Positions 51,063 through 57,642 of a stretch of DNA of 64,000 nt are shown here, piece after piece; positions within the stretch are counted from its first letter, which is position 1; every line of letters begins with the position of its first letter. The DNA lies in contig NZ_CP031946.1 of the NCBI RefSeq assembly GCF_003443535.1, positions 620,001 to 684,000 of the forward strand, read 5' to 3'. This DNA is from Ruegeria sp. AD91A. GTDB taxonomy: Bacteria > Pseudomonadota > Alphaproteobacteria > Rhodobacterales > Rhodobacteraceae. Both the position numbers and the translations under genes were made by a program. Below the pieces are notes generated by a model that saw only the letters and a list, made by a program, of their open reading frames with translations, was not told where the DNA came from and searched no databases.

Positions 51063-52328
51063 TTACGCCGCAGGGCGTTTGCCGCGTGGGCGACGCCGTT
51101 TGTTTGCTGCGGGTTTTCCTTCCCCGTTGGCGGGTTTGGGTTTGAACCCCCGGCGGCGGTTGCTCGGGCGGCGCGCCGGTTTTTCAGGTTGCACAGCTTC
51201 TGGCATCGAGCCACTGGCAACTGGGATCTCGATCTTCATCAGCTTTTGGATCTGACGCAGCAGATCAACTTCTTCCGGGGAGCAGAAGGCGATGGCTTCG
51301 CCCTCGCGCCCAGCTCGGGCGGTGCGCCCGATACGGTGGACGTAGTTGTCAGGCACCTCGGGCAGGTCAAAGTTGATCACGTAGGCGACGCCCGGGATGT
51401 CGATGCCTCGGGCCGCAACGTCGGTGGCCACCAGAATGTTGATTTCACCCGCGCGGAACGCCTTGATCGCGCGATCGCGCTGACCCTGGCTTTTGTTGCC
51501 GTGGATGGATGCGGCGTTATAGCCGTCAGCTACAAGGCCCTTCATCAGCCGTTCTGCACCATGTTTGGTGCGGGTAAAGACCAGTGTCAGGGCATCCACA
51601 TCTTTCGACAGGATTTCACGCAGCTTGATTGGTTTTCCGGGTTTGGAAACGAAGTGCAAAGACTGCGTAATCTTGTCCGCCGCTTTGCCCGGAGGCGAGA
51701 CCTGCACCCGCTGCGGGTTGGTCAGGTAGGCGCGGCTGAGTTCTTCCATCTGCTTCGGCATGGTGGCCGAAAACAGCATGGTTTGGCGTGGAGTGCCCAG
51801 TGCCGGCGCGATTTTGCGCAGTGCATGGATAAAGCCAAGGTCGAGCATCTGGTCAGCTTCGTCCAGCACCAGATGGCGTACCGCTCCGAGATTTACTGCA
51901 CCACGTTCCATCAAGTCTATCAGGCGACCCGGTGTGGCGACCAGAATATCAGTGCCACGAGAGAGGATCATTATCTGTTTATTGATCGACTGGCCGCCTA
52001 CAACGGTGGCCACGCGCAGCTTGGTGCCCTTCGTCAGGGTACGGAGGCTGTCGGCGATCTGGTTCACGAGTTCGCGGGTGGGCGCCAGGATCAGCGCCTT
52101 GGAGGTTTTCGGATCTGGCTTACCAGACTGGGCCAGAAGGTGATCGATCAGAGGCAGGCCAAAAGCCAGTGTCTTGCCGGTGCCGGTTTGAGCCAGTCCC
52201 AGAATGTCGTGACCATTCAGAGCAAGCGGAATCGCCTGGTTCTGGATCGGTGTGGGTTGAGTGAAATTGGCGCGTTTAAGTGCCTCGTTCAGTGCCGGGG
52301 CAAGGCCCAGCATATCAAAGTCGAACAA
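51063..52328 (-). CDS. DEAD-box RNA helicase (RhlE-like)
   Basis: ATP-dependent RNA helicase of 421 residues used in ribosome assembly or RNA turnover. All motifs are visible: Q motif (PTPIQNQAIP), AQTGTGKT, PTRELVNQI, DEAD (LVLDEADQML), SAT, and HRIGRTARAG. The C-terminal tail is basic (RRPRGKRP). The start is a TTG at 52328 with AAAGGA 7 bases upstream; an ATG five codons later is the alternative. Confidence 0.93.
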   Translation of the reverse strand: MFDFDMLGLAPALNEALKRANFTQPTPIQNQAIPLALNGHDILGLAQTGTGKTLAFGLPLIDHLLAQSGKPDPKTSKALILAPTRELVNQIADSLRTLTKGTKLRVATVVGGQSINKQIMILSRGTDILVATPGRLIDLMERGAVNLGAVRHLVLDEADQMLDLGFIHALRKIAPALGTPRQTMLFSATMPKQMEELSRAYLTNPQRVQVSPPGKAADKITQSLHFVSKPGKPIKLREILSKDVDALTLVFTRTKHGAERLMKGLVADGYNAASIHGNKSQGQRDRAIKAFRAGEINILVATDVAARGIDIPGVAYVINFDLPEVPDNYVHRIGRTARAGREGEAIAFCSPEEVDLLRQIQKLMKIEIPVASGSMPEAVQPEKPARRPSNRRRGFKPKPANGEGKPAANKRRRPRGKRPAA

Positions 52329-52653
52329 ATAACTATCCTTTACAGCCCGAGGCGTTGGCCCGCGGACAGGTCATGAAGGGTCGCTCGTGGGCGACCGGCA
52401 GGGGTTGTGCGAGACCTCGGAACGAGCAGGTGCATCCTGCGCCATCCGGCCGTCGCGTCAAGAACCCTGCGTGATGGGGAACTGGAATGATAAACTGGCG
52501 CTGTGGGGCGGACCAGGTCCGCTCGGGCTCACGCTTCAGCGCAGTGATGGTAGGCACATGAGGGTTCGGTGGTGGAATGTCAAGCGCGGTTAAAAATTCG
52601 GGTGATCTTCCGGGTTGAAAAAGGCACTGTTCAAGGCGGCAGGCAGTAGGTGA
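52329..52653. other. Gap between the helicase and the HxlR-like gene
   Basis: A 325-base stretch with no supported gene. Short open frames on both strands lack ribosome binding sites and family resemblance. The helicase promoter should lie in its first part, but I cannot place it. Confidence 0.4.
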
Positions 52654-53190
52654 TCACAGTGGCAAGCCAACTGCTCTGCTGATCTCTTTTCCAGCATTCA
52701 CGGCCTGATAGGTTGGAAATGGCATCCTCTCGGCAGTGTCAATGTTGCGCTGGATCCAGTTTCGTTCTTCCAGCTGGTGAAGGGATGAGGACAGCGCCCG
52801 ATCTGTAATGATCGTGAGGCCCGATTTGATTGCCGAGAAACGATGAGGGGTGCCTGCCAGCGCCAGAACTGGCACAGTCCATGTTTTTCGTAGAAGTCTG
52901 GTTTCATCCTCAGTTCGGGCGGTTGTAATTATCTTGCTGGCGACTGACGCGGCTTCGATTCCGGTTGGAGTCAGTCGAAATTCTGAACGTAGAGGATGCC
53001 CGTGACCGGGATTTCTTTCGATCATTCCTAGTTCAATAAGATGAGCAAGGCTGGTTGCAAAGGCCGTTCGGCTTGCGTTGGTTGCGGCCAAAAGCGGGGC
53101 TTGTCGGCCCGGAACTTTGGCGTGCAGCAGGGCAAGAATGTTCAGTGACCAAGCCCGAGATGTCAGCTTGACAAGTGTATTGATGTCCAT
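52654..53190 (-). CDS. Transcription regulator with two tandem HxlR-like domains
   Basis: Predicted DNA-binding protein of 178 residues. Both halves look like HxlR-type winged helices: the first (WSLNILALLHAKVPGRQAPL to FRLTPTGIEAA) and the second (WTVPVLALAGTPHRFSAI, then SSSLHQLEERNWIQRN and YQAVNAGKEIS) each show the W-x-L-L start, the L..L...G.I.R turn and a wing. A duplicated HxlR in one chain would give a built-in dimer. It is divergent from a VOC gene with only 39 bases between starts, which hold a perfect dyad. Confidence 0.75.
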   Translation of the reverse strand: MDINTLVKLTSRAWSLNILALLHAKVPGRQAPLLAATNASRTAFATSLAHLIELGMIERNPGHGHPLRSEFRLTPTGIEAASVASKIITTARTEDETRLLRKTWTVPVLALAGTPHRFSAIKSGLTIITDRALSSSLHQLEERNWIQRNIDTAERMPFPTYQAVNAGKEISRAVGLPL

Positions 53191-53194
53191 AAAG

Positions 53195-53207
53195 TATAGT
53201 AGCTATA
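53195..53207. promoter_or_regulatory. Dyad operator between the HxlR-like and VOC genes
   Basis: TATAG-TAG-CTATA is a perfect inverted repeat in the 39-base divergent gap. Its place, over both promoters, suits autoregulation by the divergent regulator. Confidence 0.5.
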
Positions 53208-53229
53208 TTTTTGAAAAAAAGGAAGCCTT

Positions 53230-53607
53230 ATGCCTCTCGTTTCATTGAAAAACACTATAACACTTGCGATGTCCGTGCAGGATCGACATGCCAGCGCAGA
53301 TTGGTATGCCGTCAATCTCGGGTTTGAGCTTATCCACCACATTGATGAAGCGGGATGGAGCGAAATGCGGACGAATGTCGACGGAGTCACTTTGGGGCTG
53401 GGCGAACAGGCCGAAGCCTCTCCGGGGAATTGCGTGCCTGTCTTCGAAGTCGCGGATATCGTGGATGCGCGCAGAAAGTTGGAGGCGGCTGGAGTGGAAT
53501 TTGACGGTGAAACGGAAACGATTGAGGGGATGGTCAGCACGGCCACGTTCTATGATCCGGACAGGAATGCGCTGATGTTGGCGCAGGATTTGACAGGCCA
53601 GGGCTGA
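53230..53607 (+). CDS. VOC-family (glyoxalase/bleomycin-resistance fold) protein
   Basis: Small metal-binding or ligand-binding protein of 125 residues. Two beta-alpha-beta-beta-beta units are visible: ITLAMSVQDRHASADWYAVNLGFEL and VPVFEVADIVDARRKLEAAGVEF, then TATFYDPDRNALMLAQDL with a late Asp-Pro-Asp. AAAGGAAG precedes the ATG. Possible lactoylglutathione lyase or a drug-binding relative; the regulator next door probably controls it. Confidence 0.85.
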   Translation: MPLVSLKNTITLAMSVQDRHASADWYAVNLGFELIHHIDEAGWSEMRTNVDGVTLGLGEQAEASPGNCVPVFEVADIVDARRKLEAAGVEFDGETETIEGMVSTATFYDPDRNALMLAQDLTGQG

Positions 53608-53649
53608 GAGCATCTGGTAAAGGAATACTCAACACAGCGGTCGCCCTGC

Positions 53650-53702
53650 GTTGCGCTAGTGTTGCGTAACTTATTGACATTAAGTACGTAATTCCGTACT
53701 AG
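53650..53702 (+). promoter_or_regulatory. Candidate GTA operon promoter with operator sites
   Basis: TTGACA at 53674-53679 is a perfect -35 box; a weak -10 (TACTAG, 53697-53702) lies 17 bases on. The spacer holds a perfect inverted repeat AGTACG-N6-CGTACT (53683-53700). Two direct repeats GTTGCG (53650-53655 and 53661-53666), 11 bases apart, lie just upstream. The layout suits one activator upstream and one regulator over the core promoter. Factor identity is not known. Confidence 0.5.
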
Positions 53703-53728
53703 TTATGTCATGCTAGAAGAGGCGGGCG

Positions 53729-53759
53729 ACGGCCCCGGGGCGACCCGGTGGCCGTTTTT
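53729..53759 (+). terminator. Intrinsic terminator in the GTA leader
   Basis: ACGGCC (53729-53734) pairs with GGCCGT (53750-53755) and CCGGG (53735-53739) with CCCGG (53744-53748), with one bulged base and a GCGA tetraloop of the GNRA type, followed by five T. It lies between the candidate promoter and g1, so it may act as an attenuator, or it may simply end the VOC transcript. Confidence 0.7.
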
Positions 53760-53806
53760 CGCTTCTCTCGTGCGGAGAAAACTCACGCATGAGGTCACAG
53801 GCAAAC

Positions 53807-54151
53807 ATGACTTTGATTACCCCGGAAGAGCGGATTTCCCAGACGGCTGACTTGTTGCAGTCGCTTGAGAGGTCCATTCGAGATCTGCGGCAAGCAGCGG
53901 AAGAACTGCGCAAACAGATCGGAGCCGGGGAGGATGCAGATCTTGCTGGTTCAGCCAAGCAACTCGGGCAGTTAGAGGGGCTGATCCGAAGTTGTCAGAA
54001 AGTGGAGACAAGCTTTGTCGAACAACATCACAGACAAGCCGGAATTGCCCAAGGAGGGTACGCGCTCGATCTTGACCGAGCTCGGTTTGAAGTCGGGTGC
54101 AGGTTGGCTCGCCTCCGCGCCTGTTGCGGTGCAGAACAGATTTCTAAGTGA
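53807..54151 (+). CDS. GTA protein g1 (small terminase-like)
   Basis: First gene of the gene transfer agent cluster; the product, 114 residues from 53807, is largely helical and matches the g1 type now taken as the small terminase subunit, which binds DNA for packaging. Coiled-coil-like ERISQTADLLQSLERSIRDL is followed by the conserved AGIAQGGYALDLDRARFE segment. ATG at 53789 is an alternative start six codons earlier. It overlaps the next gene by 137 bases in another frame. Confidence 0.75.
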   Translation: MTLITPEERISQTADLLQSLERSIRDLRQAAEELRKQIGAGEDADLAGSAKQLGQLEGLIRSCQKVETSFVEQHHRQAGIAQGGYALDLDRARFEVGCRLARLRACCGAEQISK

Positions 54152-55430
54152 GATCGGGGAGGGGGGGCTGTGCGCCCTCCCTTTCCTGTTCGAGTTCTGG
54201 GCACTGCCGCATCAGTTGCCGCCCGAAGGCGACTGGCGGTCCTGGGTTATCATGGGTGGGCGCGGTGCTGGTAAGACGCGGGCCGGGTCCGAATGGGTGC
54301 GACAGGTGGTTGAGGGGGCTTTGCCGCTGGATCGCGGCGAGGCGTGTCGAGTGGCCTTGGTCGGTGAGACCTTTGATCAGGTGCGCGATGTGATGATCTT
54401 TGGCGATAGCGGGATATTGCAATGCTCACCGCCGGATCGTCGGCCCACGTGGAAGGCATCCGAGCGCAAGCTTATCTGGCCCAACGGGGCCGAGGCGCAG
54501 GCGTTTTCGGCGCATGACCCTGAGGGGCTGCGCGGGCCGCAGTTCGATGCGGCCTGGGTGGATGAACTGGCCAAATGGAAGAAGGCGGGCGAGACCTGGG
54601 ATATGTTGCAATTTGCCCTGCGGCTGGGGGATCGGCCGCGGGTCTGTGTGACGACCACGCCGCGGAATGTGAAGGTTCTGAAGGCGTTGCTGGCGTCCCC
54701 GTCCACCGTGACGACCCATGCGCCGACAGAGGCGAACCGGGCCAATCTGGCGGAGTCGTTTCTGGCCGAGGTCCGTGCGCGCTATGCGGGCACGCGGCTG
54801 GGGCGGCAGGAACTGGACGGGGTGTTGCTGTCGGATGCCGAGGGGGCGCTGTGGACGGGCTCGATGCTGGAGGCGGCGCGGGTCGACCGGGTGCCCGATC
54901 TGGACCGTATTGTGGTGGCGCTGGACCCGGCAGTGACGGCAGGATCAGATGCGGATGCCTGCGGGATCGTGGTGGTCGGGGCGCAACTGCAGGGGCCACC
55001 CGAGGAGTGGCGGGCGTTCGTGCTGGCTGACCGGACGGTGCAGGGCGTTGGCCCGGCGGGCTGGGCGCAGGCGGCGATTGACGCGATGGATGAGCTCGGG
55101 GCCGAGCGGCTGGTGGCCGAGGTCAATCAGGGCGGGCAATTGGTTGAGGAGGTCGTGCGGCAGGTGGACCCTCTGGTCCCGTTCCGGGCGGTGCGTGCGT
55201 CGCGTGGCAAGGTCGCGCGGGCGGAGCCGGTGGCAGCGTTGTACGAACAGGGGCGGGTGTCGCATGTCGCCGGGCTGCACGCGCTGGAGGAGCAGATGTG
55301 CCAGATGACGGCGCGCGGGTTCGAGGGGCAGGGCTCGCCTGACCGGGTCGACGCGCTGGTCTGGGCGCTGCATGAGTTGGTTGTGGGGCCTGCGGGGGCC
55401 TATCGGCGGCCTAGGGTGCGGGCTTTGTGA
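54015..55430 (+). CDS. GTA large terminase TerL (g2)
   Basis: Packaging motor ATPase and nuclease that fills GTA heads with host DNA; 471 residues. Walker A is GGRGAGKT at residues 81-88, Walker B is in FDAAWVDELAKW, and the nuclease acidic centre begins at VVALDPAVTAG and continues in LVAEVNQGG. It seems to start at a TTG (54015) within g1; the conserved ALPFLFEFWALPHQLPPEGDWRSW stretch lies after residue 50. The next canonical gene (portal) is displaced by about 1 kb. Confidence 0.9.
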   Translation: MSNNITDKPELPKEGTRSILTELGLKSGAGWLASAPVAVQNRFLSEIGEGGLCALPFLFEFWALPHQLPPEGDWRSWVIMGGRGAGKTRAGSEWVRQVVEGALPLDRGEACRVALVGETFDQVRDVMIFGDSGILQCSPPDRRPTWKASERKLIWPNGAEAQAFSAHDPEGLRGPQFDAAWVDELAKWKKAGETWDMLQFALRLGDRPRVCVTTTPRNVKVLKALLASPSTVTTHAPTEANRANLAESFLAEVRARYAGTRLGRQELDGVLLSDAEGALWTGSMLEAARVDRVPDLDRIVVALDPAVTAGSDADACGIVVVGAQLQGPPEEWRAFVLADRTVQGVGPAGWAQAAIDAMDELGAERLVAEVNQGGQLVEEVVRQVDPLVPFRAVRASRGKVARAEPVAALYEQGRVSHVAGLHALEEQMCQMTARGFEGQGSPDRVDALVWALHELVVGPAGAYRRPRVRAL

Positions 55431-55522
55431 GGGACTTTTTTCTTCAGTTTCAGAAGTCAAACAACTGCTTTTGAGATTTGAGAAGCCTGTGATCGCACTA
55501 TGCCCCGGTAAATGTACTGGAA

Positions 55523-56212
55523 TTAGTTGGAGATTTTTACTCGTTTAACCCGTACATCTCGGGAAACCATTTCGTAGCGAAATGGGTATTGAGAATATAC
55601 TCCGTGCTTAAAAAAGTACTTTTCAGGTTGAAATGCACCAGCACTCTTGGAGAATTCATAGCGCCCGGTCGCTTGGACTTTGTTATCCAGCCAAATCGTT
55701 GTGTCGAAATTTCCTTCTCCATCAAATACTACCAGAACTTTCACTTCCCGCTCTTTACCATCTAGCACGAAGCGACCGGGGGATTTTGCAGTTGAAAGCT
55801 TTCCTCGAATACAAGACTCCCCCGGCCCCGTTTTTATGTCGCTAATGAGTGCCAAGTGTCCCGATTTTGTAACATCGATCTTTAGTGGTGGCGCGCAACC
55901 ATGCCTGCCGTCGTGAATTTGAAACAGCCCAAATTTCTGACCCTTTTCGCCTGTCATGGATACGCGGCTTGTAAAAAGATATGCACCACGATGCGTTGCT
56001 GAAACCTTGTCAGTGTATATTTCCGCGCGTTGCGTGAATATACCACCAGGACAATGGTTGCTGCTGGTCTTGAACGTCCACGTTCGACCCTTTTTTGTGA
56101 TTGAGCCTTTGTCCACACCACAAGAAATGCGCCATTTATCCAGCGGATTTGCATCTACAGAAGAAGCGAAGAGGGCACATGCAAAGCCCACGACAAATGC
56201 AAATCTAAACAT
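55523..56212 (-). CDS. Secreted polysaccharide lyase-like protein inserted in the GTA cluster
   Basis: Exported protein of 229 residues on the opposite strand to the GTA genes. A signal peptide (MFRFAFVVGFACALF, cleavage near VDANP) is followed by a beta-rich domain resembling the concanavalin A-like fold of heparinase-I/glucuronan lyase-type enzymes: GLFQIHDGRHGCAPPLKIDV, VVFDGEGNFDTTIWLDNK and FFKHGVYSQYPFRYE. Base composition is AT-richer than its neighbours (about 38% G+C in the 60 bases from 55561 against about 73% from 55201). GGAG lies ahead of the ATG. Probable insertion; substrate unknown. Confidence 0.7.
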   Translation of the reverse strand: MFRFAFVVGFACALFASSVDANPLDKWRISCGVDKGSITKKGRTWTFKTSSNHCPGGIFTQRAEIYTDKVSATHRGAYLFTSRVSMTGEKGQKFGLFQIHDGRHGCAPPLKIDVTKSGHLALISDIKTGPGESCIRGKLSTAKSPGRFVLDGKEREVKVLVVFDGEGNFDTTIWLDNKVQATGRYEFSKSAGAFQPEKYFFKHGVYSQYPFRYEMVSRDVRVKRVKISN

Positions 56213-56478
56213 CAAAACTCCGGACCAACAATATTGTTTGGAATCGAGCATATCACAACGAGAGATTCTACCCAAAGCACCTTGATTGATCTTGTGTCCG
56301 TCAAGATCGGCTCTATCTGCAACGACACCATTTGAATTCGTAGCTGAATTGGGCTTGTAGCAAAGGATCAAGACTACCGTTGCCCACCCCCCGTACGCCC
56401 CATTCCCAAGCCCTAAACTTCTTTCCCTCATAACTCCTTTCAACGAGCCGGGCAGAGCGGCGGCAGAAAGGAGAACAG

Positions 56479-57642
56479 ATGGTATTCGATTTCTTGCGTC
56501 GTGGATCGGCTGGGGAAGCGCCGGAGGCAAAGGCGAGCGCGGCGGGGCCTGTGGTGGCGTGGCAGACGGGTGGTCGCGTGGCGTGGAGCCCTCGGGATGC
56601 GGTGTCGCTGACGCGGACGGGGTTTTCGGGGAACCCGGTGGGGTTTCGCTCGGTCAAGCTGATTGCCGAGGCGGCGGCGGCTTTGCCCTTGGCCCTGCAG
56701 GATCAGGCGCAGCGCTATGAGGCGCATCCCATGCTCAGCCTGATGCGGCGTCCGAATGCGGCGCAGGGGCGGGCGGAGTTGATGGAGGCCGTATTCGGGC
56801 AGCTGCTGTTGTCGGGCAATGCGTATGTCGAGGCGGTGCAGGCCGAGGAGGGGCTGCCGGTTGAACTGCATGTTCTGCGCTCGGACCGGATGAGCGTGGT
56901 GCCGGGGGCGGATGGCTGGCCCAGGGCGTATGACTATACGGCGGGGGGCAAGACACACCGTTTTGCGGCAGAGGCCATCTGTCACATCAAGTCCTTCCAC
57001 CCGCAGGATGATCATTACGGGTTCTCGCCCATGCAGGCGGCGGCGATGGCGATTGATGTGCATAACAGCGCGTCTCGTTGGTCGAAATCACTGCTGGACA
57101 ATGCGGCGCGGCCTTCGGGGGCGCTGGTCTGGAAGGGCGGTGATGGCCATGGGGTGATGGCCGAGGATCAGTTTCGGCGTCTGTCCGATGAGATTGAGCA
57201 GAACTATCGCGGGGCGCGCAATGCGGGGCGACCGATGGTTCTGGAAGGGGGGCTGGATTGGAAGCCGATGGGCTTTTCGCCCTCTGACATGGAGTTTCAA
57301 AAGACCAAGGAAGCCGCCGCCCGCGAGATCGCGTTGGCCTTTGGGGTCCCGCCGATGCTGCTGGGGATACAAGGCGACGCGACCTATTCGAACTATCAGG
57401 AGGCCAACCGGGCGTTTTATCGCCTGACCGTGCTGCCTCTGGTGACGCGGGTGGCGGCGGCGGTGTCGGAATGGCTGGCGGGCTTTACCGGTGAGGAATT
57501 GGTGCTGAAGCCCGATCTGGATCAAGTGCCTGCATTGTCGGCGGAGCGGGATGCGCAATGGGCGCGGGTTAGCGGGGCCGAATTCCTGACCGATGCTGAG
57601 AAACGCGCGCTGCTGGGGCTGCCGGAGCGTGCGGATGGGTGA
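56479..57642 (+). CDS. GTA portal protein (g3)
   Basis: HK97-family portal of 387 residues that forms the dodecameric entry ring of the GTA head. Typical blocks are LTRTGFSGNPVGFRSVKLIA, YEAHPMLSLMRRPN, LLLSGNAYVEAV and ALAFGVPPMLLGIQGDATYSNYQEAN. A strong AAAGGAG site precedes the ATG, which may be needed because the inserted gene breaks coupling to g2. Overlaps the next gene by 8 bases. Confidence 0.93.
   Translation: MVFDFLRRGSAGEAPEAKASAAGPVVAWQTGGRVAWSPRDAVSLTRTGFSGNPVGFRSVKLIAEAAAALPLALQDQAQRYEAHPMLSLMRRPNAAQGRAELMEAVFGQLLLSGNAYVEAVQAEEGLPVELHVLRSDRMSVVPGADGWPRAYDYTAGGKTHRFAAEAICHIKSFHPQDDHYGFSPMQAAAMAIDVHNSASRWSKSLLDNAARPSGALVWKGGDGHGVMAEDQFRRLSDEIEQNYRGARNAGRPMVLEGGLDWKPMGFSPSDMEFQKTKEAAAREIALAFGVPPMLLGIQGDATYSNYQEANRAFYRLTVLPLVTRVAAAVSEWLAGFTGEELVLKPDLDQVPALSAERDAQWARVSGAEFLTDAEKRALLGLPERADG

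Follow-up and report, generated by a model that had tools for sequence, protein, structure and literature searches.

A slot for interchangeable cargo genes between the terminase and portal genes of Ruegeria gene transfer agent clusters

Introduction

Gene transfer agents (GTAs) reportedly package host DNA essentially at random, with no preference for the genes that encode the agent itself (PMC11841831, available portion), and why GTA clusters persist is debated (PMC6209664, available portion). A further question is raised by the GTA cluster of Ruegeria sp. AD91A, which lies in a 64,000-nucleotide stretch of contig NZ_CP031946.1 (the window, to which all positions refer). Its terminase-portal-capsid gene order is that of the RcGTA cluster of Rhodobacter capsulatus and relatives; the Ruegeria agent is known here from its genes alone. 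Unlike the RcGTA cluster, it has a cargo gene between g2, encoding the large terminase, and g3, encoding the portal. Is this gene an accident of one genome, or is the g2-g3 junction a place where such genes come and go? We compared the junction across the genus and beyond it, characterized the cargo and asked which mechanism would best account for its distribution.

Results

The g2-g3 slot of Ruegeria sp. AD91A

All scored GTA genes from g1 to g15 were found in the AD91A genome in the expected order (locus L131), and PHROGs matched the terminase, the portal, the major head protein and the gene at the g12 position. The original prediction had placed about 1 kb of AT-richer DNA with an opposite-strand gene between g2 and g3. 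Indeed, the interval from the g2 stop codon, ending at 55430, to the g3 start at 56479 measures 1,048 bp, exactly as located, with a GC content of 46.8% (46.7% with the g2 stop codon included). Flanking GTA genes on both sides have a GC content of ∼60–72% in 500-bp windows, which agrees with the description of a foreign gene placed among the head genes. The 3.6-kb stretch from g2 to g3 has a single match in its own genome.

Table 1. Features of the slot and its two arms in Ruegeria sp. AD91A (window positions).
Feature	Positions	Strand	Basis
g2, large terminase, left arm of slot	54015..55430	+	PHROGs terminase large subunit; ends aligned across genus
Variable cargo interval (slot), g2 stop to g3 start	55431..56478	.	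Sole variable junction of 15, g1-g15, in genus
Cargo gene, 229 aa, hydrophobic N-terminus, PL7-like polysaccharide lyase fold (predicted)	55523..56212	-	Pfam, alignment, AlphaFold2, Foldseek
Right border: conserved ∼100-bp element preceding g3 and including its ribosome binding site	56374..56478	.	In all 38 genus intervals
g3, portal, right arm of slot	56479..57642	+	NCBIfam portal_HK97

The left border of the slot is the g2 stop codon, since the g2 ends align across the genus. On the right, GAAAGGAG lies directly upstream of g3, and the ∼100-bp element was located in all 38 genus intervals, where the other copies are 82–97% identical to that of AD91A. The g3 protein itself shows 95–96% identity in the closest ∼22 genus members and 88–96% over all close matches. 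A diverged relative of the element precedes g3 in genome G036 as well, though g3 there does not adjoin g2. The element may be a leader, a promoter or a regulator site. We did not retain it as a family-wide conserved regulator site in view of its partial, weak conservation outside Ruegeria, where AGGAG occurs in 76/83, a CG[TC][AG]CGG core in 34/83 and GTTGC in 27/83. Additionally, the element holds a minus-strand micro-ORF (a MTERSLGLGNGAYGGWATG-like frame) with an ATG start in 38/38 copies and GGAG just ahead of it. We considered this frame as a leader peptide and dropped it for want of convincing signs of translation: its third codon positions are only about twice as variable as the first two, several genomes have it truncated and the ribosome-binding-like sequence lies very near the ATG.

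The slot is filled throughout Ruegeria

Among 54 Ruegeria genomes, 40 have a portal match (that of G025 being only distant), and the 38 in which both g2 and g3 could be placed, AD91A included, make up the junction sample. G036 (L052/L129), where g2 is not upstream of g3, was excluded from all junction counts. An insert lies between g2 and g3 in all 38 genomes; no slot is empty. Measured from the last g2 codon, the interval ranges from 557 to 2,971 bp, with a standard deviation of 380 bp. As a control within the cluster, the remaining 14 of 15 junctions between g1 and g15 were measured: genes there overlap or are a short gap apart, no standard deviation exceeds 8.4 bp and outliers are absent (n = 35–38).

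To place the junction in a wider setting, we examined 91 loci among 315 genera with a portal; these belong almost entirely to other genera, came from the top of the portal similarity ranking and are therefore a non-random sample. Seven of them were unmeasurable, including a duplicate of a later-measured genome and the own-genus G036. The spacer was 49–433 bp in 83 of the 84 measured; three of these 83, of 293–433 bp, may hold small genes. Thus, g2 and g3 are normally separated by a short spacer only, and a filled slot characterizes Ruegeria. The single exception outside the genus, G084 (L132), has 5,853 bp at g2-g3, with LuxR-like, polyamine ABC transporter-like and SDR-like genes as named by reading their translations.

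The region from a DEAD-box helicase gene to g1, beyond the cluster itself, is a second variable zone and spans 500–2,517 bp (n = 37). In AD91A this zone (52328–53789) contains one ORF of 178 aa on the minus strand and one of 125 aa on the plus strand present in just 12 of 39 loci.

The AD91A cargo gene encodes a PL7-like protein

The open reading frame list extends the cargo frame to 335 aa from an upstream TTG; we adopted the ATG at 56212 because homologues align from it. The resulting 229-aa protein matches Pfam Alginate_lyase2 with an E value of 3.3e-4 and 21 bits, under the 29.7-bit gathering cut-off, and we therefore describe it as PL7-like instead of filing it as a family member. Nine of ten aligned family members match Alginate_lyase2, three of which also match Polysacc_lyase. 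The ten relatives have in common a W, a C and the motifs QRAEI, FQIHDGR and YFKHGVYSQ or close variants, which we take to be the PL7 catalytic motifs. An AlphaFold2 model built on 29 sequences is almost wholly beta (pLDDT 90.9, pTM 0.85). Its top Foldseek matches in the PDB are PL7 alginate lyases (7w13, E 3.5e-9; 5zqi) at probability 1.00 and TM ∼0.57, and glucuronan lyases (7nde, 2zzj) are also in the list. The protein thus resembles PL7/Alginate_lyase2 in fold and motifs, and differs in its sub-threshold Pfam score and in an identity of at most 16% to the top 23 PDB matches. The modelled PL7-like beta jelly-roll is well supported, in keeping with the lyase link made in the original prediction, and we predict the product to be a secreted polysaccharide-lyase-like enzyme.

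Sequence searches of the PDB with the cargo protein gave no match, and neither did PADLOC, PHROGs, NCBIfam or annotated phages; a plasmid search returned one Rhizobium record (37.6%). Relatives are rare, occurring in 3 of 54 genus genomes and 11 of 394 family genomes. In genome contigs, a single-sequence search found no relative and an alignment search found 65 loci, including Ruegeria, Rhizobium, SAR116 and Pelagibacteraceae. The homologue and the portal are on different contigs in the two other genus members that have one, and among the 38 junctions only that of AD91A carries it. Two viral contigs also hold relatives. In the metagenomic phage contig L260, a 56% relative is flanked by a DNA methylase and a gpA-type terminase, which bears out the comparison with a phage moron that had been offered for this gene; for the relative, it is a true phage moron position. 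The other contig, L259 (IMGVR_UViG_2840609097_000001), is a 13.3-kb IMG/VR 'virus' with an identical cargo gene and a 100% identical portal; the GTA cluster of this strain, or of one nearly identical to it, has here been catalogued as viral.

Cargo families are diverse and shared cargo is under purifying selection

We counted ∼26 unrelated families in 42 cassettes. This is our own count from 28 BLAST clusters of ORFs, after a 73-aa ORF of L102 (probably spurious) was dropped and the two ORFs of L108 were taken as one cassette. Thirteen families score above the Pfam cut-off: methyltransferase, cation efflux, guanylate cyclase, carboxymuconolactone decarboxylase, Imm33-like, DUF4189, DUF2971, SUKH, Hint, isochorismatase, luciferase domain, short-chain dehydrogenase (SDR) and CmcI-like methyltransferase. 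Two fall below it (DUF4274 and the lyase-like gene) and 11 have no match. The Pfam scan of 27 cargo proteins found no integrase or recombinase. PADLOC, run on 27 cargo members, matched nine models, each by one member, with Pycsar-cyclase matches for the cyclase-type cargo.

The g3-proximal cargo is on the minus strand in 27 of 38 genomes. Interval GC is 45–56% in 34 genomes and 61–63% in the four with an SDR gene. Within families, cargo dN/dS was 0.04–0.23 in 21 of 24 pairs, the other three being saturated. Shared cargo is under purifying selection.

Cassettes turn over across the genus

Same-family cassettes occur in distant species, and their borders mostly coincide with those of the slot. 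Nine of 11 same-family pairs align end to end within ∼25 bp of the whole interval; the remaining two are short on the g2 side, one by 71 bp and one by ∼200 bp. By Fitch counting, cargo changed 30 times on an acnA tree of the 38 genomes, against 31.4 on average (minimum 28) with labels shuffled, and 26 times on a GTA-gene tree of 34 genomes, against 28.1 (minimum 25), in a test that has little power given the many singleton cargos. On the acnA tree the distribution of cargo is close to random, and eight of nine shared families are scattered. Only SDR forms a clade; this group, four of the 38 intervals, is clade-inherited and not AT-rich, which counts against exchange.

Recombination is centred on the slot. 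We correlated pairwise distances in 400-bp windows across 34 genomes, L130, L098, L099 and L133 being dropped for a contig too short or for missing genes. Beside the slot, where low diversity lowers the correlations, those with acnA were -0.01, 0.04 and 0.17, the three lowest of 35 windows. Over most of the cluster they were 0.2–0.56, and the next-lowest value, 0.19, occurred at +700 and also at +5,500. As one gene, acnA is a noisy marker, its own windows reaching 0.42–0.55 with the rest (three of six windows; the other three gave no value). Measured against g8-g14, the correlations showed an independent dip, which was 0.17–0.37 from ∼1.2 kb upstream to ∼1.9 kb downstream of the slot and recovered to 0.55–0.61 at g1 and to more than 0.5 downstream.

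The closest relatives of AD91A on acnA are G011 and G035. AD91A is 93.6% identical to both in g4-g5, and its g2 body and g3 are closest to other lineages. Because G011 and G035 hold a cation-efflux cassette in the slot instead, the identity of the cargo in AD91A looks recent. The recency originally proposed for the insertion thus seems to apply to the cargo and fails for the site, which is occupied in 38/38 genomes; with inserts at every one of these junctions, the idea of a one-off event was not upheld. Far from being an isolated accident, the odd gene of AD91A exemplifies a slot whose content can be swapped.

Some slots hold cassette arrays

Three genomes, G015, G043 and G045, carry more than one cassette in an array, with decayed copies of the g2 3′ end lying in between. 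The G043 array consists of an 84-aa gene, a g2 tail copy and a member of a 242-aa family, and that of G045 of a decarboxylase-like gene, a g2 tail copy and a 116-aa-type gene. The G015 array begins with a Hint gene, a decayed copy of the g3 element and a g2 tail copy, and continues with the 84-aa gene, another g2 tail copy and an isochorismatase gene. The displaced tails measure ∼100, 107, 154 and 158 bp. The cassettes of G044 and G014, each the only one in its genome, begin at the very point where the displaced g2 tails of G043 and G045 end. G015 and G043 have 533 bp in common (84-aa cassette, spacer and tail), and the next cassette differs. Side-by-side entry with duplication of the flank would leave such a structure.

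Deleted and split clusters

A close g3 is missing in 15 of the 54 genus genomes. Ten of the 54 have the same in-frame deletion junction, from g2 codon ∼185 to g15 codon ∼795 (L309-L316, L318 and L319; genomes G051, G038, G028, G025, G007, G042, G032, G039, G029 and G037), and the fusion frame is 845–848 aa in most. The nine fusion genomes placed on the acnA tree are scattered throughout it (clade of 53/53 tips). The fused parts have dN/dS of 0.06–0.08, like intact genes, in eight genomes (L318 and L319 left out). Both ends of the deletion share a GA(A/G)-leucine-GG stretch, and the g15 part is in most cases similar to alleles from nearby species, so that both recurrent deletion at a short repeat and the spread of a GTA-null allele are possible. 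Four further genomes, G030, G008, G027 and G004 (L308, L317/L322, L320 and L321), are GTA-deleted with other g2-g15 or g2-g14 junctions, and G005 is without a g2 match. In G036 (L129, L330), g1-g2 and g3-g15 are on separate contigs, and ispG-like and acetyltransferase-like genes (named by reading) lie upstream of the element preceding g3; the cluster appears as if split exactly at the slot.

Discussion

We consider it likely that the g2-g3 junction of Ruegeria is a cassette locus at which homologous recombination through g2 and g3 swaps one allele for another; fragments packaged by the GTA itself plausibly supply the incoming DNA. The exchange of cassettes is well supported; the GTA is their presumed carrier. 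A cassette, mostly of one gene, would sit between the g2 stop codon and the ∼100-bp element. Incoming DNA would bring a g2 tail, a cassette, the element and g3, and its two conserved arms would recombine with those of the recipient, replacing the resident cassette between strains and species. RecA-type exchange would thereby drive the turnover. Occasionally the incoming piece would enter beside the old cassette and leave a duplicated g2 tail between both, in an array that could later lose a member. Homologous replacement via g2 and g3 would account for the borders, the turnover and the recombination dip. The first entry of a brand-new gene is outside what this model explains.

The carrier DNA would be a GTA fragment. 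In the available portion of PMC9690577, RcGTA fragments are ∼4.5 kb and are integrated by allelic replacement; the 3.6 kb of g2, cassette and g3 would fit such a particle. Natural transformation, conjugation or phage may instead move the cassettes. More tentatively, and less probably than not, the GTA could be mobilising its own cargo: a built-in exchange cassette sized for one particle (g2 arm, cargo and g3 arm) would let the particle shuttle host-useful single genes between species by allelic replacement.

Transcription of g3-g15 past opposite-strand cargo may survive by antitermination or from a promoter in the element. In Caulobacter, GafZ is an antiterminator with which polymerase passes a terminator after the first GTA gene, GafA being homologous (PMC11150451, available portion). 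Our promoter and terminator scans were at chance level, with one promoter-like match versus 1.3 in shuffles and two terminator-like matches versus 1.4.

The explanation that competes best, although we doubt it, is that g2-g3 is a neutral landing site. As the sole sizeable spacer it could take insertions that break no gene, and the cargo would be a passenger without a link to the GTA. A spacer of 49–433 bp already exists in other genera, the other junctions of the genus overlap or are short, and the cargo functions share no common theme, as such a site would allow. However, 83 of 84 other genera have the spacer and yet no gene-sized insert, none of the 38 Ruegeria slots is empty and shared cargo is under purifying selection. 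Both readings can be combined: neutral landing may hold for the origin of the slot while cassette exchange holds for its turnover.

A role of the cargo at release, to the benefit of the GTA or of the cell that produces it, is improbable; glycan cutting would clear matrix and orphan immunity proteins would protect against factors in the lysate. That the lyase-like protein helps particles to pass capsules, as the original prediction suggested, is speculation. The PL7-like, predicted secreted protein of AD91A would suit this role, as would the SUKH and Imm33-like cargo elsewhere and the cyclase-type cargo with its Pycsar-cyclase matches; the R. capsulatus GTA tailspike TspA degrades biofilm and raises transfer (PMC13420450, available portion). 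Cation efflux, SDR, isochorismatase and methyltransferase cargo, however, has no evident link to release, just nine PADLOC models were matched, each by one of 27 members, and with 27 of 38 g3-proximal cargos on the minus strand, co-expression with the GTA is not expected for most.

Integron-like or integrase-driven insertion at the g2 3′ end is very unlikely. A fixed left border at a gene 3′ end, the displaced 3′ ends in arrays and one gene per cassette are features it would produce, and integron cassettes likewise have miscellaneous functions and form arrays, as the Ruegeria cassettes do in a few genomes. Unlike an integron, the Ruegeria slot shows no integrase or recombinase among the 27 scanned cargo proteins, is bordered by the g2 3′ end and the g3 element and holds genes on both strands. 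Moreover, the displaced g2 tails are unequal in length, which fits decay or homologous exchange and not a single att site. Least probable of all is that this lineage recently acquired, in a single event, an insertion which split and impaired the GTA operon: the AD91A gene is AT-rich, on the opposite strand and missing at the same site in the other 37 genus genomes, but wherever g2 and g3 are readable in those genomes, the same border has an insert, and AD91A keeps its scored GTA genes in order. These findings speak against a new site; GTA output in AD91A may still be weakened.

Cassette exchange through g2 and g3 thus remains our preferred reading, and the slot that it describes is akin to phage cargo sites. 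Phage morons are likewise single extra genes among conserved phage structural genes, on either strand and often of differing GC, and a relative of the AD91A cargo gene adjoins a terminase in a phage contig. That gene itself lies between phage genes, has a GC content of 46.7% and is unique at its site among the 38 genomes. Unlike morons, the cargo sits in a GTA cluster, which is not self-replicating, in a slot that is filled in 38/38 genomes and turns over across the genus; a location inside a gene transfer agent and turnover on this scale are what is unusual. The slot is real and, as far as the literature searched shows, undescribed: mostly non-subscription literature, including the available portions of PMC9836097, PMC6209664, PMC6821227 and PMC6854486, yielded no account of such a slot, nor of an insertion or a moron in a GTA cluster, and older Roseobacter GTA figures may show one.

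As Ruegeria shows, a GTA operon that looks 'broken' can be what is normal for a genus. With an interchangeable gene at one set position inside 38/38 clusters, and strong recombination around it, the genus offers a natural marker of exchange in the wild and permits a direct test of whether cargo helps to keep the GTA cluster. If the GTA does mobilise its own cargo, a useful gene inside the cluster would reward an intact g2 and g3, which would be a new answer to the question of how GTA genes are maintained.
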